From NCBI GenBank assembly GCA_024220525.1, contig JAMYWO010000330.1, positions 6,619 through 39,965 on the forward strand: DNA of 33,347 nt, given 5' to 3'. The DNA comes from Cochliopodium minus. Taxonomy: Eukaryota; Discosea; Himatismenida; Cochliopodiidae. The translations under genes were made by a program, and so were the position numbers. Positions 4,041-33,347 of the stretch are shown one piece after another. Within the stretch, counting starts at the first letter, position 1. Every line of letters starts with the position of its first letter. The notes beneath the pieces are model-generated. The model made no database searches. It was not told the DNA's origin and saw only the letters and a list, made by a program, of their open reading frames with translations.

Positions 4041-7000
4041 TCAATCTCCATTTTGTATTTGAAGATAGGAATAAGGAGCATATCCCAATTTCCCATTACA
4101 TTCACTCAAAGTCCAACCATCATCGTGTATCTCCATAACAGTTAGAGAATCCCCTTTAGAAAAAGAGAAATCCTCAAAACTATAATCATAAAGGGCAGTC
4201 GCAAAAATTGATTGATCTTCGTTGGAGTTGTCGTAGATCTCTGTGCTTTGATCTTCATCAGTCCTTTCACTGTGCTCAGATTGCTCAGAGTTTTGAGATT
4301 CAAAAATAAAATTATCAGAATCCCTATTCTCTGAGACAGAGTAGTGATCAGTGCTGGTGGTAGGCTCGTTGTAAATTTCGTTGTTTTCATTGCTTTCGTA
4401 CAAAATGTTTTCATTGCTTTCGCCATTCTCATTCTCTTCATCAGAGAGCTCACCCAAGTTTTTCATGGAACCCTTCTTCCAAGAAGTTTTCTTGTGAGTT
4501 CCAATAATCATGCTTTTACTCAGAGAGGAGCGTCTTTCTCTTTCCTTTTCATTGTTGCTCTGGTTGAAAAGGGTTCCAGACAAACGTTCGACCTTGATGG
4601 GAGAAGAAGACTTGACACGAGGTTTAGGAACGTTTGGAATTTGAGGTTTTTTGATGCCCAAAGGAGAGGGAGATTTGTAGTTGGTGTTTTCATTAGATTT
4701 GGCGAGCATCTTGAGGGGATCAAAGGAGGTGTTCTTGGCTAAAAAATTTTTCTTGACGGATGTGTTCTTCTTGAGTGCTTTGTTGAAGGACTTTACTCTA
4801 CGCTTTTCGGGGACGGGAACTTCTTGAGGTTGATGAGTTTTGACGGGAGGATAAGTGTTGATGTTGGGTCTTTTCACAGGGTTCTGCAAAATGGCCTCTT
4901 TCAACAAGTTAAGATGGTTCATGTTATTGTTATTCGCGTTGTTGTTGGAGATGGTAGGGCTTTGGTTGGTGGGACTGTTGGGAACGATCTTGATGCTGTT
5001 CCCAGAGATTTTCTTGGGTTTTTGAAAAGAGAAGGGATCTTCTTTGTGAGAATTTTCGGGAGAAGTGACCATGCAATCAAAGGGTTTTTTTTCATTGTTC
5101 TCCACGGTGTTCTTCTTTCTGGGGATTTCTCTCGGTTCTTTCTTGGGGAACTTGGCCAATTCCTTCGAATCTTTCTTAGAAAGGACGGGCTCCTCCCTTT
5201 TTTCTTTCCCATTCAAATTAGGAGAATGAATGTTGTTGTTGTTGCTGGTATGATTGTTTCTATGGTTATTATTGATATTGTTGTTTATGTTGTTGTTTAA
5301 ATTGTTGTTAGTGTTGGGAGAAGTGGAAAGATCATTTTTGAGAGGAGGGAGTACTTTGAAGGGAATTTTGAAGGAGGGATTGATTTTGAGAGGGTTGATT
5401 GCTTTGTTGGGAGTGGCATTGGGGAGCTGCTTGTTGGGCATGTTGTTTTGTTGGGTGATGTTTTTTTTGACGGGGGTTTTGGTGACAGCTACTATTTTGT
5501 TGGGTTCTTGCTTTTCTACTGTCCCCACGTCCACTTGTACTGGCTGCATCTTTTTTGGGTTTGGCAATGGCCTGTTGGGCGGTGTGCTCCCTAATTAAAA
5601 AGATTAAATAAAATGTAGAAAAAAAAAAATTCAAAAAAGAATTTAAAAAAAAAAATTTATCAAAAAGAAAAATTAAAAGAAACAAATCAAGCAATTCTTT
5701 TGAATGATTAATGTTAAAATAAATGTTAACAAATTCGTAAATAAAGAAAATGATTAATTATTTTAAAAAGGAAAAATACCAGAATTGGACAAGAAAGAAG
5801 GGTTGGGAGGGCTGTTTTCGGGAGGAGTAGAAGAAGGAGGAGGATTGGAAAGGGGAATGTCGACAGAGTTAGAAGGAGGGTCAGTGAGATTATTAGGATT
5901 ATTAGGGTTGGGAGTGATTTTGGAGCCACCCCCTCTAAGAGAGTTGAATTTGGGAACGGGGTTACTTAGAGGGGGGACAGGAGGGTTGTTTGGAGATTCT
6001 TTGTTTTCTTTTTCTTTGTTAATTACTTTTTTTTCTTTGTTAATGTTGAATTTGGTGGGGAGAGGGTTTCGAGGGGGTGTGGAAAAGTTTTCTGCTTTCG
6101 AAACGTTATTACTGACATTGTTATGTGTGTTGATGTTGTTGTTGTTACTAATAGGACTGTTCATATTAATAGTATTAATATTGTCGTTAATATTGTTATT
6201 ATTTACATTATTATTCACATTATTTAAATTATTGACATTATTATTATTATTATTAGTATTATTGTTAGAATTATTATTAGTATTATTATTAGTATTATTG
6301 TTAGTGTTATTGTTAGAATTATTAGAATTATTAAGATTAACATTAGAATTAAGATTAATATTAGAAAGATTATTATTGGAATTATTCAGATTGTTATTGG
6401 AATTTTTAAGATTGTTAATGTTGTTAGGAGTGCTGGGCAGAGGTGGTGGAGCTTTGTTTGTCGAGTTTGGCGTGTTGGGCAAACTTGGGAGGCTGGGTAG
6501 AGGTGGTTTGGGCTATTAAAAAAAAAAAAATGAGTTAACGGTTTAAGAAAAAAAACAAATATATTATAGAAATGTCAAAAAAAATTGAATAAAAAAAAAA
6601 TCAAAGCCTCATAAAAAAAAATTTAAAAAAAAAATTAAAAAAGTTTTAAAATAGATAAAAAAATAGTTTAAAAAAAAAATAAATTATAATTTAAATTAAA
6701 AAAATAAGAAATCAAAAATAAAATTAAGAAAAAATCAATTGAATTTTTTTAAAAAAAAAAAAAAGAAAAAGCATACAAGGATCTTGGGGAATTTTCTTTT
6801 GAGGATGTACTTCTGAGAATTTTCGGCGCCATTGGGAAAGAAGACAGAGTAGTTGGAAAGAAGGTTGAAAATGACCGAAACGGATTTGGGGGAGACGAGG
6901 GAGTAGTTGAGCTCCCTCGTCTTGGGGAAGAGGATGTGTGAACCAATCACGTTGGCAAAGTAGATGAGGTTGGAGTTTGACTTTGATATTTTGTGTAAAA

Positions 7001-9547
7001 ACCACAGTGTGAATTCCAAGAATTGATAGTTTTTTTGAGGGATGTTTTGTAGTGTTGAACTCAGTTTTTCTGTTTTTTTTTTTTTAAAAGTTTAAAATTT
7101 AAAATTTTTTTTTTTGTAAATTAAATAATCTTTTTGTTTTTTTTTTTATTTAATTAAATTTTTATCTTTTGTTTTATGTTTCTTCAAAAAAAAAATTCGA
7201 ATTTGATTATCGTTCCTTTCAAATTTCTGATGTATATTCAATTTTGTTTTTAAAATTTTTTTGTTGTAATATTGAAAAAATTTTTATTTTATTTATTTTT
7301 TTTATTTTTGTTTTATGTTAAATTTTGAAAAAAAAAAAAATTTTTTTTTTGTTTATCATTTTAAATCTTTCAAAATTTTTGGTGTGATACATTTATTTTT
7401 AGTAAAAATGTTTTTGATAGAAATCTTTTTTCATAAACATTTCCAATTTTTATATTCATTTTTTTAATTGAATTTTATTAATAAAATGACAATTTTCATT
7501 TTTACTTGTAAAATTATTCAAAAAATAAAAATGTAGTTTTTTGATTTTATTTTTTTTTTTTGGTAAATTTTTTTTTTTACTCGGTTCGCAGCTCAACACA
7601 GTTTCGTAATATTCGAAAGGGATGATGGGGGAAGGCTGCTCCTTGAAAAACTCTAACAAAAGAGTTGCCAATACATTGGTGGGGATGTTTTCCAACTGTG
7701 TTAAATACTCCTCATTCTCATCTAGACAAACGAAAAAATAATGAAAGAAAAAATAAAAAAATTGTTAAAAAATAAAATAAATAAAAATAAAAATAAAATA
7801 AATTTGATAAAGTATCTAATTCTAAAATTATAAAATAAAACCTATAATTCCTATAAAATGAATATAATATTGCTCATATATTAAAAATAAACCAAGTAAC
7901 TGATAAAAAATAAAAATAAAAAATAAATAAATGAAAAACTGAAAATAAACAAAAATTAAATTAAAAAAAATGAATAAAAGTAAATGAAAATAAATAAAAA
8001 TTAAAGTTAAAAAAATAAATGAAAAAAATGATTAATTTAATAATAGAAAAAAAAGAATTCTCCACCTTCCAACTTTTGTTTCATTTGGGTGATGGTGTAG
8101 GAATCGACTTTATAAGAGAAAAGACCATCGACATTGGTGAGATCTCTGTGGAGAAGAAGGGAGAACATGAAGGAGATGGGTTTGGGGAAAGTGTTCTCCT
8201 CTCTTGAAAACAGCACGTCAAACTCCACCCCGAATATCCCGTACTTCGAATGTTCTATGTATTGATTGAATGCACCTTTTTTTTGTTGATAAAATCAAAA
8301 ATAAACAATTAAAAAATTTTAATATTCTTATTCAATATTCTGAAAAAGGTTTTCCAAAAAATAAAATTAAAAAAAAATTTGATAAAAAAAAAAAAATTAA
8401 AAAAAAAAAATTAAAAAAAAAATTGATAAAAAAATAAAAAATAAAGAAAGTTAATTAAGAAAAATTTTTACTGCTCCAAAAAGCTGTTTCTTCTTTAGTT
8501 TCTCCAGAAATATCTTTTTTTAAAAAAAATTCAGTGGTTAAATGGAAAAAAGAATGATTGTCTCAAAAAAAAAATTTATGAACAAAAAAATAAATGAAAA
8601 AAATGAAATATAAAAATTTGATGTTAAAAAACCATGATTCCAAGTGCTCTTGTCCATTTGAATGGACAACTTGAAACAGATGGTGGTGGAGTTTTTGATG
8701 GAACACTTGTCGAGACGATAGATGTCGTCAAGGGAATAAGCCTTGAAGGAGCTCTTGGCGCTCTTCTTGTGGGTGGTGAGAACAAAGACGTCGTTGAAGA
8801 GGAAACAGTAGAACTTTTTGGAAGAAAAGGTGATTTTGCCCTCCTTGACGAGGAAACGTCCGCTCTTGGTGGGAGAAAAGTTTTTGTCTTTAGGAACCTC
8901 GAGACGTAAGGCGACAGAGTTGGTGAGTTGAGTGGATTCTTCGTTCTTGAGGAAAAGATCCAAAAGAAAGTTGAGATGCGAGATGGTGATGTAGCTGTCG
9001 CAGATCTCCCCAAACTCCTCGCTGGTGAAGGAGATGGTGGAGAAGTAGGTTTCGCAGGACATGGAGTAGTTTTTGATGTAGGTGAGGGGGAGTTGGAGGA
9101 TGTGTTTGAGCTCTCTCCTTCTGTTCTTCAAAGTACGACTCTGGATAAAGTTTTTGAGCGTCTCGCTTTTCACCGTACAAAAAGTCAATGTGTCGAGTGC
9201 CTTTTTGATGTTGAGGGAGTACTCCCTGATTTCCCTGGTGATGTCTTCTAACAATGAGAACATGGTGGCTCCCAATCCCTCTACAAATGGCCATTTTGAT
9301 TCCATTTCTATTTTCCCAAAGTAGGAGGCCACTTTACAATGGAAGTTGAAGGATTCTTCTATTTTGTAGAAGATAGTGTTGTGTTCTTGTGTGGTGAGCA
9401 TTGATTTTTTGGAGTTTTCCAAGTGATCTTTGAGTGGCATGACGAATGTTTGCAGCAGCTCCCCCATCTCCACCACGTATCTCTTCTGATTCTTGCACAG
9501 CTGTTGGAAAGAATCATATCTCTTCTTGGAGGATGTCAACAATTGTT
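4041..9547 (-). CDS. RhoGEF (DH-PH) / RhoGAP-like / SH3 multidomain protein, 5' end unresolved
   Basis: Exons: 9547-8633, 8513-8472, 8275-8066, 7721-7581, 7069-6777, 6512-5780, 5590-4041; all join in phase and give about 1,294 residues. Order: a DH-type GEF domain (QKRYVVEMGELLQTF is its first conserved helix, near residues 20-200), a PH domain (FLVKEGKITF to FWSSAFNQYIEHSKY), a RhoGAP fold (IFGVEFDVLF, then LATLLLEFFKEQPSPIIPF, then SNSNLIYFANVIGSHILFP), a long Pro/Asn-rich linker with PxxP motifs (PPPLPSTP) and poly-Asn, and a C-terminal SH3 domain (ALYDYSFEDFSFSKGDSLTV). It should load Rho-family GTPases at membranes and bind partners by SH3. The RhoGAP arginine-finger position reads GLFSYK, not GLFR, so GAP activity is doubtful. 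The start codon is not resolved; it should lie in a short exon between 9550 and 9770. Confidence 0.82.
5863..6460 (-). repeat. Asn-rich low-complexity coding tract in the RhoGEF/GAP gene
   Basis: On the coding strand this is a run of AAT/AAC codons broken by Ser, Thr, Leu and Val (pattern NNNTNNNT, densest at about 6160-6420). On the plus strand it appears as TTATTATTG triplets. It forms part of the disordered linker between the RhoGAP and SH3 domains, the usual place for homopolymer growth in such genomes. Confidence 0.75.
7070..7580 (-). other. 511-nt intron of the RhoGEF/GAP gene
   Basis: Between donor A|GTAAAA (exon end 7581) and acceptor ACAG (exon start 7069). It is one of the longest introns here, made of poly-T/poly-A runs. 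The in-phase join restores the RhoGAP sequence, from YYETVLSCEPK into KLSSTLQNIP. No gene is seen inside. Confidence 0.7.
7722..8065 (-). other. 344-nt intron of the RhoGEF/GAP gene
   Basis: Between donor G|GTGGAG (exon end 8066) and acceptor TCTAG (exon start 7721), phase 1 on both sides. It holds A/T-rich low-complexity sequence without coding signal. Confidence 0.65.
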
Positions 9548-9769
9548 CTATCAAATAAATTCAATTAAAAAAGATGTGAACATCATTAAAGAGAATAACG
9601 AAAATTATTTTAATGTGATTCCAATCTAAATAAATAACACTGTATATTTGAGTTTATCTTGAAAATATGTCTGGATATAGACACATTTATAATTTTTATA
9701 TTGCATTAAGAGATTTATGACTTCAAATAAGTTATAATTGAAATATGAATCTTCAATTTATATTGATTA

Positions 9770-11462
9770 TCAAGAATAAAAAAAATGTTTTTTACTGTAT
9801 TCTCTCAATTTTCTTCTCACCAAAAATCCTCTGGCTATCGATTGGACTTTTACAATATGCATTAGTGTTTTTTTGCCATCTGTTGGTTCAGGAGGAAGAT
9901 GGGATACAGCTTTCTTGATTACTGCTTTCTCTTCTTTTTCTGATTTGAATTTTTCCCATTGAAGGACCTTGCCATCATCTGAACAACTCCATATCTTATC
10001 ATTGATGATGGTTATTGAATTTATTCCTTTCTGATGTCCACGATATAGACCCAAACATTGTCCGCTCTTGAGATTCCAAACCCTTATTGAATTATCTCCG
10101 CCAGATGTGTATAAATATTCTTCATTAAATAAAATTGATCTGATCTTCCCAGTATGACCTTTTTAATTCAATAAATTAATAAATATTGAATTCTTGATTT
10201 AGAATTGAATATATAGAAGAATGGATAAATAATTATTCGAACAACTAAGTAAAATATATATATAATAATTTTGAATTATAATTCAATAAGGATTCTTATA
10301 TGGAAATCTTAGGATCTATTATTTTTTAATATTTTTTTATATACCTTCCATTACTCTATTCCTTTTGCCAAATTTGAAATTCCAAATGGTGATTCTCATG
10401 TGATTATCAATGGCATACAAAAGATCATTGTGCAATCTGAAGAAATGGAAGGGAGCTTCACCAGTCATCACCTTTACACATTTTCCCGATTTCACATTCC
10501 ATACACGAATGGTTTCATCAGTTGAACAACTGATTATAGTGTCTTTGATTACTTGAAAATAATAAATCCAATCTTTATGTCCTCTCAATGTTTGTATGCA
10601 ATTCCCTGTTTGGGAATTATAGATCCTGATGGATCCATCACAAGATGAAGAATAAATAAAGTCTCCCTTTTTTACCACTTTAGTCAAAAAATCGGTATGA
10701 CCTTCCAATGACAATGTATGATTTATAGTCTAACATTAAAAGGAAATAATGTATTAAATTTTGTATGAGTTGTTTTTGATTTCAATCAATATCAAATGAT
10801 ATGTTTAATATTAAATATGTTGTTATAAAATAATTGAGGAGTGGAGAGATTTAAGTGTTTGTATGTATGATGTTTCCAAATTATGGTCATTTGGTTTATA
10901 TTTACAATTTAATTATAAATAATTTACCATTGTGGGAGATTCCAATGGAGGAATTGGAAAGATTTTTGAAGTAAAATCAGCACTCGCAGTAAATAAAAAA
11001 TTATCTTTAATATACAGATTGGGAATCCAACTGACATGCCCCACGAATTTATGTGATTTTTGTTTCAGTCTTTGTAAATTCCACGCTCTTACTATAGATT
11101 CTTTTTCAGAGGTGGCGAATAAATATTGTCCAACCACTTTTGCTTTATGTATGATTTTTTTATATGTCACGAGCATTTCAAGAGTCTAATAATAATTGCA
11201 TATATAAATTGGCATTAATTTTAATATATATGTTACTTCTCTATCCCATATTGTTATTTGTTCTTCATGTACAAGTATTATCATTTCTCGTGGTTGTGAA
11301 GCAAAAAGAAATTGTTTGATTGGTATTTTTTGATCAAATATTACATCTGTGTGATTTAATATCTTTCGAAAGATATAAGTTTATTTGTCAAAAAATGGCA
11401 AAAAAATTTACTTGTGGCTCAATATTTTTTTCCTGTCTAAGGAATGTAAATGCCTTCATCAT
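9770..11462 (-). CDS. WD40-repeat protein with C-terminal IQ motif (402 aa)
   Basis: Exons: 11462-11412, 11362-11237, 11185-10928, 10729-10345, 10158-9770; lengths 51, 126, 258, 385 and 389 close to exactly 403 codons. The start is the first of two ATGs (MMKAFTFLRQ). About eight WD-type blades are visible, with clear examples GSIRIYNSQTGNCIQTLRGH, DETIRVWNVKSGKCV and NSIRVWNLKSGQCLGLYRGH. After the last blade comes a linker and an IQ motif (VQSIARGFLVRRKLRE), a calmodulin or myosin-light-chain binding helix, then the end. It is probably a scaffold that may respond to calcium through calmodulin; no specific orthologue is recognised. It diverges from the F-box gene, 152 bases apart. Confidence 0.85.
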
Positions 11463-18292: not shown

Positions 18293-18721
18293 TCACAAAA
18301 TTATTTTAATGTTTATTGAACACATTTGGCATGGGAATATGGAATAACCTTCTTCCAAATCATTATAAGATATTGTTATTTTTCCATTACATCTGCAATC
18401 ATATTCAAATAATTCTTTTTCTTCATTATTGTATAAATCTTCAATACTTATTTCATAATGAGCATGTATTTTTTCTTTATTCAGTTTATTATTATATTCA
18501 ACTCTCCTTATATCATCATATAAAGTATAATAAGCCTCTTGAACTAGATTAAACTTTTTCCTAAAATATTCTTTATTTTCTTCATTTCTATCAGGATGTA
18601 TTATTAAGATTAATTTTTGGTAAGATGATTTTATTTCTTTCTTTGTTGAATTCTGATTAACAGATAATATTTCATAGTAATTTTGATTATCTTCTTTATT
18701 TTGGAGCAATTCTACACTCAT
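18293..18721 (-). CDS. DPH4: Diphthamide biosynthesis protein 4 (J-domain + CSL zinc finger, 142 aa)
   Basis: A single exon. Residues 14-80 are a J-domain with the essential HPD at 42-44 (IIHPDRNEE), so it can stimulate Hsp70 ATPase. Residues 90-142 match the DPH-type zinc domain: ISIEDLYNNEEKELFEYDCR with cysteines C109 and C111 (CRC), and C131 and C134 (CQMC), which bind zinc or iron. This J + CSL pairing is diagnostic for DPH4 (DNAJC24/JJJ3), which works with DPH3 to support the radical step of diphthamide formation on elongation factor 2. Length fits the family. It is one of the few intronless genes in the window. Its stop faces that of the ankyrin gene. Confidence 0.92.
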   Translation of the reverse strand: MSVELLQNKEDNQNYYEILSVNQNSTKKEIKSSYQKLILIIHPDRNEENKEYFRKKFNLVQEAYYTLYDDIRRVEYNNKLNKEKIHAHYEISIEDLYNNEEKELFEYDCRCNGKITISYNDLEEGYSIFPCQMCSINIKIIL

Positions 18722-18918
18722 TATTTTTTTTTTATTAAATTAAATGGCTTTGTTGAAATAAGAAGAGATGATCCAAACCTTAAAGGATAATTATACTTTG
18801 TATTAATTTTTTTTTTTTTTTTTTCAGTTGGAAGAGGGATATAAAACTTTTCAAATGAATAGAGGAAAATTTTTTTTTAATTTAAACTCTTTTTATCAAT
18901 TTACACATAAGAAAGAAA

Positions 18919-20619: not shown

Positions 20620-21582
20620 TTATTTTTTTATGTTTTTCAATTTTTTTATATGCAACAATCTTTGTGCAATGTTTGAATAATTTGCAATACCACTAAGCTT
20701 TCCTTCTTTCTCCATTTTGAACATACTAGCAATATCTGCATTAATAGCAACAGCCAAAACAATTGAAATGAGAGACTTTTTGGAAACAACCTGGTTGTAA
20801 GAAAAGAGTCCATTGAAAGGTAAGTCATCTTTTTTGTGAATGATTATTCTGTAGAAACTGTTCGAAAGGGGATTAATTTCAATGTGAACAAAATTGAATT
20901 CGCCAGATAAAGTGTTTGGGTTGTAAGGGGAATCGCTTTCATTGAAAACAATATGGACATTATCATTACCCAGATGCCTTTTTTTGTTGTTCACCAAAAA
21001 GAGCTCATTCTGATAAAGATTGGGCATCATCGTAGCAACGTGAAACATGATGTGTTGTGTTTCTGTGTTTCTTGAAATGCTGAATTTTCCATCCAAGTCC
21101 TCACTTGTGTCAAGACCTCCAGTAAAGCCGGTATAATCTTTGAGTTTTACATAGTTACCCAGTCTTTTGAGGAATTTCAAGTATTTGGTTGAGGAAGGTG
21201 TTGTTGACAAAATCAATTCAGAATGTTCCACCATTTCTTTGGGTATGTATATCACTCCTATTTTTCTGTTTATTATCGTTGAAGGAACATAATCTAATAC
21301 CTCAATCTCCCTTTCTATCCCTCCCACTTTTGGTAGCCCTATTTTCAAAAATAAATAATTAAGTTATTTATAAGTTAATTAAAATAATTACAATAAGTTA
21401 TTTATAAGTTAATTAAAAATTAAAATAAATTTTGGTTTTTTTTAAAGAAAAAAAAAATACGGAAGGGAGTGGAAGTGAAGGGGATATGGAACAATTGAAG
21501 AAAAATGAAAGAGGGATGAATATTTACAAAATCAAAATTAGAATCTGTCAAATCAGTGTCTAAATTGTTATTATTGTTATTA

Positions 21583-30622: not shown

Positions 30623-30711
30623 ATGAGAGGATACAAAATTAAACCTGTCAAAGAAGATCCAATCAACTATGAACAAAAAGAAATAATAAAATTTTGATAG
30701 AAATTATAAAG

Positions 30712-33261
30712 AAGTGATCTTATATTTCCTAGGTACTGGCAATGTGATGATATGTGGATGGCATATAATCTCAATCAATGCAAATTGATTGAAGATGAAT
30801 ATGCAAAGGGAAACCAAAAACAAGTTAAACTAGATAATCAAAGATACATCGATCTGATTTCAATGCAACAAAAAAGATATGATGATCCCAATGCCATCAG
30901 AACAGTTAAAAGAGAAGTAAAAGAGTTAATCAAGGATATTTGGTATTTGAATGCCTATAGTTCTGTTCATATTGGAAATGATAATGTCGCCAAACAAATT
31001 GAAAGAGGAAATAAGAGTAACCTTCTTTTTAAATAATTATCCTCTTTCCAAAAAGGAAATTTCTTTTTAAAAATGATTTAAAGTTTTTCAATTAGTACTC
31101 TAATACCTTTTAGCTTTAACTTTTTTGAACTAACAATATTCTCCTTGAAAAATCAGTTATTTTGCCACCAAATATTCTCCAAAGGATAATGGAACAAAGT
31201 GCAAACGGACCATTCTTCTTCAAATTGGAAAATCCTCATATAATGGGTAAATCATTCAATCATTCATTCAATCAATCTTTAAAGTTTCATTTGCATTAAA
31301 AAAAAAAATTCTCCAACAAATTTCTAATTCCAATCCAAATAAAAGAATTTATTAATTATTTGATTAAATAAATAAATCAACATTTATTTGATTTAATTTT
31401 TTATTTTATTTTTTTGATTTAATTTTTTCTGATAAATGAAATTTAATCAATTAATTTTTTCAAAAAAAAAAAAAAAGAGAGGACAGCAGTGGCAAGTGTA
31501 GCAGAATTTAACGCACCAGAAAACACATGTTACATACCAGAAAACTTGATGAACAGAATGTTGTTGAGTGAGGGAGAAGAAATAAATGTTTCATTCACCA
31601 TTTTACCACAAGGAGAATATGTTAAATTATTACCTCTTTCTTCTGATTTTTTGGATTTACAAGATCCCATTCAAATTTTAGAAACTGTTTTTGGTTATCA
31701 TTATTCTTCTCTTTCTGTTGAAGATCTTCTTTCTGTTCCTTTTGATAACAAAATTTATGATTTCACTGTTTTAGAAACCAGGCCCTCTCCTTCCAGTAAA
31801 AAAAATTTTAAAAAAATTTTAAAAAATAAATTTATACATACACCCACATATTTATTTTAAAAAATAAATATATACATACATCCACATATTTATTTTAAAA
31901 ATAAATATATACATACACCCACATATTTATTATTTTACTTTTTATCTTTACTTCATCATTTTTTTTTATTTTTTTTTTATTTTTTTTTGTTACTATTTTA
32001 TTTATTTTTTATTTTTTATCGTTATTTTTTAATTATTTTTTTTATTTCAACATCTTTTTTAATTATTTTTATTATTTTTTAATTAATTTTTATTTTTCCT
32101 TTTTAAAAATTTATTTCCTATTAACTTTTATTTTTTATAAATCTCTTTTTTACATTTTTTTTTAAAATACAATAATTAAATTTATTTCCTTATTATTTAA
32201 AATATTTAATTTTTTAAACTTTAATTTTTTTATCAAAAAAAAAACACAGTAAACATAATAGATCAGACGTTGAAGATAGATTTTGAAGCTCCCTCTGTCC
32301 AAAAAGAGGGGCCTCTTAATTTGAGAATAGGTGAGGAAGTTGAAGGAGAAGTAGGTGGAAATTCTTTCCGTTACTTCAAATTTTATGTAAAAAAAAAAAA
32401 TAAAAAATAAAAAAATAAAAAATTAATAAAATAAAAAATCAATAAAATAAAAAATCAATAAAATAAAAAATCAAAAAAAATGAAAAATAAAATAAGATAA
32501 ATAAAAATAACAAAATTAAAATAAAATAAAAAATAAAAATAAAAATAAAAAATTTTGAATAGGTAAAAGCAGAACAAAAGGATTTGGTGGTACGCGTTAA
32601 TGTGAAAGCTATCTCTGGAGATCCTGATCTCGTATTATTTTTATTTATTATTATTTTAATATATTTATATTTTATTTTATTTTATTTTATTTCATTTTAT
32701 ATTTCATTTTATATTTTATTTTATATTTTATTTTATATTTTATTTTATATTTTATTTTATATTTTTATTTTATTTTATTTTATATTTTATTTTATATTTT
32801 ATTTCATTTATTATTATTTATTTTATTTTATTTTATAACGTTAATTTTAATTAATTTTAAATTTTTTTTTAAAAAAAAAAGTACATATCTTTGGAGAACA
32901 AACAACCAGACCCAGTAGACAACACCTGGTCTGCGGTTACCACAGGAGGTGAAGAAATCCTTATTTACCCCAATGATCCTAACCGCAAAGATGGTACTAA
33001 AAAAATAAATAATAAAATATAAAAAATAAAAAATAAAAAAATAAAAAAATAAAAAATAAATTATTATAAATTTTATTCAATAAATAATAAAAAAAAAATT
33101 TTTTTAAAGATTCTACATATTATGTGGGAGTGAGAGGATACAAAAAGGACAGTAAATTCGCAATAAAGTATGAGTGTTTAGAAATAAGTGAGGTTATGTT
33201 GGTCAAAAAAGAAGAAACTAAAGTATCAAATTTTACTCTTTCAATTTATTCAAAAATTTAA
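30712..33261 (+). CDS. WWE + UFD1-like + PPC-like fusion protein, 5' end unresolved
   Basis: Exons: 30712/30715/30733-31016, 31157-31246, 31487-31795, 32250-32386, 32563-32631, 32882-32993, 33110-33261, all in phase. First a WWE domain: YWQCDDMWMAYNLNQCKLIE, then KQVKLDNQRYIDLISMQQ and IRTVKRE. WWE modules bind ADP-ribose polymers. Next a UFD1-type fold: KIILPPNILQRIMEQSANGP, SVAEFNAPENTCYIPENLMN, LPQGEYVKLLPLSSDFLDLQ, then DPIQILETVFGYHYSSLSVE. UFD1 is a p97/Cdc48 cofactor for ubiquitylated clients. The end resembles a bacterial-type pre-peptidase (PPC) beta-sandwich: SFRYFKFYV, VNVKAISGDPDL, STYYVGVRGYKKDSKFAI. The first coding exon is not settled: an ATG at 30623 opens MRGYKIKPVKEDPINYEQKE, but no GT donor joins it in frame. 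Together it suggests a link between ADP-ribose or ubiquitin signals and p97. Confidence 0.8.
31796..32249 (+). other. 454-nt intron of the UFD1-like gene
   Basis: Donor A|GTAAAA after PSPS and acceptor ACACAG before the exon starting at 32250, phase 1 on both sides; the join reads SINIIDQTLKIDF, matching the family's alternation. It holds three tandem hairpin-forming repeats at its 5' end, then poly-T low complexity. Confidence 0.75.
31824..31935. repeat. Three tandem 37-38 bp hairpin repeats
   Basis: Three copies of a unit spaced 38 and 37 bases apart, each with the core TACATACAYCCACA. The core is flanked by AAAATAAATAT on one side and ATATTTATTTT on the other, an 11-base inverted repeat, so each copy can fold into a hairpin with a loop of about 14 bases. 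The repeats differ by a few bases. Confidence 0.75.
32640..32835. repeat. A/T simple repeat in an intron of the UFD1-like gene
   Basis: Repeats of TTTTATTTTATAT and similar units between donor CTC|GTATTA (32631) and acceptor AAAAG (32881). No coding content. Confidence 0.7.
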
Positions 33262-33265
33262 AAAA

Positions 33266-33347
33266 TTTAAAAAATTTATTTATTTTATTTATTTTATTTA
33301 TTTTATTTATTTTATTTATTTTATTTATTTTATTTATTTTATTTATT
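33266..33347. repeat. 9-bp A/T tandem repeat at right edge
   Basis: About eight copies of ATTTATTTT just past the stop codon of the UFD1-like gene, running to the end of the window. It probably lies in the 3' flank. Confidence 0.7.

Follow-up and report, generated by a model that had tools for sequence, protein, structure and literature searches.

A WWE domain joined to a UFD1 domain in two paralogous gene models of Cochliopodium minus

Near the 3' end of a 33,347-nucleotide stretch of Cochliopodium minus DNA (positions 6619–39965 of contig C327; hereafter the window), we found a gene model that encodes a WWE domain, a UFD1 domain, and a beta domain that we term PPC-like, in that order. The order recurs in a paralog on another contig (C110), all three parts are under constraint between the two copies, and the WWE part has the WWE fold together with residues that contact ADP-ribose in known WWE domains. 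Our preferred interpretation, which we hold with about even confidence, is that a UFD1/PPC-like/zinc-finger protein carried the WWE before an old duplication and that it may act as a coincidence reader of ADP-ribose and ubiquitin.

Contig C327 is 39,965 bases long, and the window thus reaches the contig end. The window is AT-rich, its genes contain introns, and its gene content is eukaryotic. Combining GT donors with AG acceptors, we obtained an in-phase, stop-free chain on the plus strand from 30733 to 33261 that reads WWE, UFD1_N1, UFD1_N2, and PPC-like, in sequence. Together with the Pfam matches, this chain bears out the original prediction, made from the DNA letters, that the three domains lie in one exon chain. 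The exon at 30733–31016 holds the WWE (residues 24–85) and the start of UFD1 (IWYLNAYSSVHIGNDN...ERGNK), and the Pfam UFD1_N1 match begins inside it, at residue 99. UFD1_N1 (PF03152, E 1e-19, residues 99–192) continues in 31157–31246 and ends in 31478–31795, which also carries UFD1_N2 (PF24842, E 5.1e-18, residues 194–270). UFD1 ends in 32250–32386, where the PPC-like domain (PF04151, residues 296–371, E 2.4e-5, 25.5 bits with the cut-off at 25.9) begins; the domain then runs through 32563–32631 and 32882–32993 and ends in 33110–33261. This last exon in the window is open to a TAA at 33259–33261, or it may splice onward past the contig end. Joining 31016 to 31157, the junction that had been proposed between WWE and UFD1, restores the UFD1 sequence GNKIILPP; the WWE exon, previously placed from 30712, starts at 30733 in our splice model. 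Several acceptors are possible at 31477, and the chosen one yields ERTAVASV, which aligns with ERVTIASV of C110. Of the profiles named in the original prediction, WWE and UFD1 (UFD1_N1, 70.3 bits against a cut-off of 29) score above their Pfam cut-offs and PPC falls just below; UFD1_N2 also scores above its cut-off (65.3 bits against 37). A scan against NCBIfam matched no family.

Exon 30733–31016 has no in-frame ATG ahead of the WWE core, so we looked for an upstream exon; without one, the WWE misses its first Trp. A frame from the ATG at 30623 to 30696 encodes MRGYKIKPVKEDPINYEQKEIIKF plus the first two bases of Trp25, and its phase 2 join to 30733 creates Trp25, the first W of the W-x-W motif. 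This W is invariant across the 15 rows of our alignment A2 (window, C110, RNF146, DTX1, and 11 other loci of the same genome; 20 WWE loci were fetched and 7 omitted). The exon lifts the WWE match from 33.6 to 38.8 bits (E 5.3e-8 to 1.3e-9), and the C110 exon ends at the matching alignment column, also in phase 2, with a GT donor. A script listed seven other single first exons (ATG, GT donor, phase 2) between 29600 and 30732; none of these creates the WWE Trp or resembles the C110 first exon by eye. We kept 30623–30696, with its non-GT donor, as the most probable first exon.

With this exon, the window WWE scores 38.8 bits against a PF02825 cut-off of 21.1, and the C110 WWE scores 43.3 bits. 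By alignment, we tested the core ADP-ribose contacts, namely the stacking aromatic, the Gln to the adenine, and the Tyr and Arg to the proximal phosphate. The window WWE keeps four of four (W27, Q71, Y63, and R81), and the C110 WWE keeps three (W13, Q58, and R68). In RNF146, the distal phosphate is surrounded by Arg110 and Trp114, and also by Lys175. Arg110 and Trp114 correspond to D30 and M34 in the window and to D16 and N20 in C110, and at these two positions the domain departs from an RNF146-type iso-ADP-ribose reader. ADP-ribose reading by the window WWE, as first proposed, is thus plausible from its ligand residues and from the PARP and PARG genes of this genome; the replacement of Arg110 and Trp114 speaks against it.

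These same replacements, and the missing phosphate Tyr in C110, would also fit a WWE that binds proteins or senses ATP/ADP and does not read ADP-ribosylation, in an otherwise ordinary UFD1/zinc-finger adaptor. Table 1 of PMC11269756 gives precedent: the HUWE1 and TRIP12 WWE domains bind ATP at 59 and 316 µM and prefer it over monomeric iso-ADP-ribose (132 and >500 µM). However, both are among the five WWE proteins tested there, all of which bind 11-mer poly(ADP-ribose) more tightly than ATP. With the stacking Trp, Gln, and Arg kept in both copies and PARPs and PARG encoded in the genome, we consider such a nucleotide- or protein-binding module rather doubtful.

The genome searched for relatives is an assembly of 44,654,751 bases in 598 contigs. 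Its C110 paralog (locus L034, minus strand) was modeled by hand as an intact gene of 15 exons and 632 residues, with GT-AG borders at 14 of 14 introns. After the WWE, Pfam finds UFD1_N1 (70.9 bits) and UFD1_N2 (62.9 bits); the same beta domain and a Cys/His-rich part follow, in which a Cys/His pattern suggests zinc fingers C-terminal of UFD1. Because this paralog, 55% identical to the window protein over the shared part, has the same domain order, the WWE-UFD1 fusion is more than chance, and at the level of predicted genes we regard it as confirmed. Five of the seven window introns lie at the same alignment columns and in the same phases as in C110; the window copy has two introns of its own, as does C110 within the shared part. 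Between the copies, Nei-Gojobori counts per synonymous and nonsynonymous site are 0.95 and 0.26 for the WWE (62 codons), 0.76 and 0.28 for the linker plus UFD1 (185 codons), and 0.72 and 0.31 for the PPC-like domain (119 codons); the first exon, with 10 aligned codons, gives 0.56 and 0.38 and carries little information. These counts indicate that the copies are old and that WWE, UFD1, and PPC-like are under constraint. Searching the genome with the window protein gave matches on C327, on C110, and to the UFD1-only gene on C14 (E 6.5e-10), with weak ones on C19 and C4, and no third WWE-UFD1 gene.

Two other origins of the pair were considered and set aside. We reject a recent assembly duplicate, since C110 is only 55% identical and synonymous sites are at or near saturation, and the existence of the paralog argues against a chimeric exon chain. 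More broadly, an artefact, in which neighboring genes were joined through a wrong exon choice or a decayed copy was taken for a gene, could draw on the non-GT donor of the probable first exon, on a contig end inside or just past the gene, and on models built from genomic sequence alone. Yet in each of the two paralogs a single exon holds the WWE and the beginning of UFD1, the gene model on C110 is unbroken, and the substitution pattern shows constraint, which leaves an artefact very improbable.

Because the window stops at the contig end, the 3' end of its gene is insecure. The frame ends in VSNFTLSIYSKI, with its stop at 33259–33261, where C110 runs on into putative zinc fingers. An AT-rich repeat like that in the introns follows the stop, and window base 33347 is the last of the contig. 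Candidate onward donors are a GT at 33223 and four GT between 33188 and 33202. The zinc-finger part of C110 has eight matches in the genome: three lie on C110, and C19, C9, C4, C339, and C79 have one apiece, that on C339 being weak at E 0.04. We recognized no close partner exons of the window copy among them. A C-terminal beta-sandwich had been predicted here. The beta domain is indeed present, but its C-terminal place is doubtful given the continuation in C110: the window gene may end with it or may extend further.

The PPC label for this domain is weak, hence our term PPC-like. In a single pairwise hhalign comparison, a four-paralog profile aligned to three PPC domains of a gene on C113 with 84.5% probability (E 6.9e-6), and a control comparison with WWE gave 0.1%. 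Searched against the PDB, the profile found no convincing PPC; the 30 sequences listed were mostly antibody chains (best E 0.02), with one metalloprotease chain, 2luw (E 0.3), among them. In the C113 gene itself (locus L037, 118914–120207), the PPC domains adjoin Cys-rich stretches that look EGF-like by eye, and its protein may be secreted.

The UFD1 N-domain is complete in the window protein, and a phmmer search with the spliced product matched the human UFD1 chain 9yrc_H at E 1.7e-30 (residues 80–269 of our first model). UFD1_N1 matches fall at seven loci of the genome (eight exon matches). C14 is the canonical UFD1, C79 combines UFD1 with Cys/His-rich open reading frames, and C4 and C9 combine UFD1 with a beta domain resembling the one in the window gene and with zinc fingers. 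Among these loci, only C110 and C327 have a WWE match in a search made exon by exon, which could overlook a WWE interrupted by introns.

Canonical UFD1 acts together with p97 (PMC5389986), and the original prediction drew on this partnership to link ADP-ribosylation to extraction or degradation. Such a model would make the window protein an alternative UFD1 subunit of p97-NPL4, the WWE steering p97 directly to ADP-ribosylated clients. The complete UFD1 N-domain is consistent with this, as is the presence of NPL4 in the genome (four exon matches at one locus). We searched for SHP boxes starting from the consensus h(x)1-2F/W(x)0-1GxGx2L given in the same source, dropping the leading hydrophobic and accepting I, V, or M in place of the final L. 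As positive controls, this pattern recovered two boxes in the C14 open reading frame and one, ending in Ile, in that of C19. It found none in the window, C110, C4, or C9 proteins or in three C79 open reading frames, where the window copy may miss its 3' end; VIM and VBM patterns were likewise not found in the window, C110, C4, or C9 proteins. In addition, the window protein has the PPC-like domain after UFD1 where canonical UFD1 has its SHP-bearing tail. We therefore find no support for direct binding to p97, although p97 might be contacted in other ways, and we consider a p97 subunit of this kind unlikely. Since the known motifs for p97 recruitment were not found, we left that step out of our preferred interpretation. 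Separately, the UFD1 variant on C19 (locus L033, 150970–153200) has one SHP-like box and several Cys/His motifs in Cys/His-rich open reading frames, and it would be a better p97-linked candidate than the window gene.

Among known systems, the window protein shares both UFD1 N subdomains with canonical UFD1 (C14 and human chain 9yrc_H); C14, with its two SHP boxes, lacks WWE, PPC-like domain, and zinc fingers in the open reading frames seen. C4 and C9 resemble the window gene in that a similar beta domain comes after the UFD1 N-domain and no SHP box could be found. Several Cys/His zinc fingers follow in both, a part that the window copy may have beyond the contig end. They differ in having no WWE in their models. 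The N-terminus of C9 is charged and coil-like, and the C4 model begins directly with UFD1, its upstream sequence being partly readable. A plant relative of C4 and C9, of this UFD1/PPC-like/zinc-finger type, is probably PRLI-interacting factor K, At4g15420. That name appears in PMC4855317 and PMC3565376, in one of them among zinc-finger proteins. RNF146, HUWE1, TRIP12, and DTX1 share with the window protein the WWE fold and core ligand residues, and both they and the predicted window protein would combine an ADP-ribose reader and a ubiquitin-system part in one chain. These proteins carry ligase domains (PMC11269756), whereas in the window protein the WWE is paired with a UFD1 domain; for neither the window nor the C110 model does Pfam report a ligase domain. 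Word searches of openly licensed literature, covering passages of PMC1949818, PMC5389986, and PMC2964712 and list entries for most other papers, showed no WWE-UFD1 fusion.

Altogether, the simplest history would be that a UFD1/PPC-like/zinc-finger protein, of the make-up seen in the WWE-less C4 and C9, gained a WWE at its N-terminus, and that this WWE was in place before the duplication into the C327 and C110 copies. The zinc fingers of the window copy would then lie lost beyond the contig end or be absent. Canonical UFD1 binds ubiquitin through its N-domain. The UFD1 N-domain of the fusion would do the same and its WWE would bind ADP-ribose or an ADP-like group, so that the protein could gather clients bearing both ADP-ribose and ubiquitin and pass them on for processing.

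Several observations weigh against this interpretation. The donor of the probable first exon is ATAGAA, not GT, and its intron would be 36 bases; we cannot tell whether this reflects an unusual site, an assembly error, a damaged copy, or a different true first exon. In C110, Phe50 replaces the phosphate-binding Tyr. PF04151 reaches 25.5–25.7 bits in the window copy, just under its cut-off, and PPC does not appear among the matches of C110, C4, or C9 at E 0.5. The zinc-finger matches also fall under Pfam cut-offs, the best in C110 being Znf_XAF1_N (E 6.6e-5, 22.7 bits against 27). The window copy has no zinc fingers within the contig and could be damaged or truncated. Finally, both genes are predicted from genomic sequence, ADP-ribose binding from residue patterns, and ubiquitin binding by analogy with canonical UFD1.

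The wider genome matches the PARP catalytic domain in 23 exons, PARG in 10 (three main loci), and WWE in 28, so that it likely encodes enzymes that write and erase ADP-ribose as well as additional readers. A search for the Deltex DTC domain gave no match, and control genomes likewise gave none. Scans of viral contigs and of bacterial and archaeal genomes, each with two short WWE-region peptide patterns, found no relatives. Tandem WWE domains, often in one open frame, occur on C156, C129, C105, C63, C43, and C71 (loci L009–L028 and L039–L047). C156 has two similar WWE arrays, at 60282–60938 and 64175–64840, in which the WWE at 60282 and that at 64175 are identical in translation.

Elsewhere in the window, three regions on the minus strand were annotated. 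A Rap/Ran-GAP domain at 20626–21363 (E 2.6e-47) may be the last part of a long Asn-rich gene that extends, by eye, to about 27129. WD40 repeats (10340–10729 by scan and 9773–10162 by eye) lie upstream of a RhoGEF at 8541–9560, and the two perhaps form one gene across 8541–10729. At 18299–18739, Pfam finds a DnaJ domain and a CSL zinc finger, a combination known from DPH4-type proteins.

Among WWE proteins connecting ADP-ribose with ubiquitin, those studied best are ligases, enzymes that write ubiquitin. In the window protein, the partner of the WWE is instead a domain from the apparatus that deals with ubiquitylated clients. It is conceivable, though we rate it improbable, that WWE and UFD1 in one chain read clients or hybrid chains bearing ADP-ribose and ubiquitin together; the protein would then link PARP signaling directly to extraction that depends on ubiquitin, with no need for a PAR-directed ubiquitin ligase (PAR, poly(ADP-ribose)). 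That both old paralogs are under constraint suggests a long-standing use for the combination. If both domains bind like their relatives, the fusion would be a one-protein test case for the combined reading of two marks, and our analyses suggest that a protein of this kind, for which C. minus has two genes, could respond to both ADP-ribose and ubiquitin tags.
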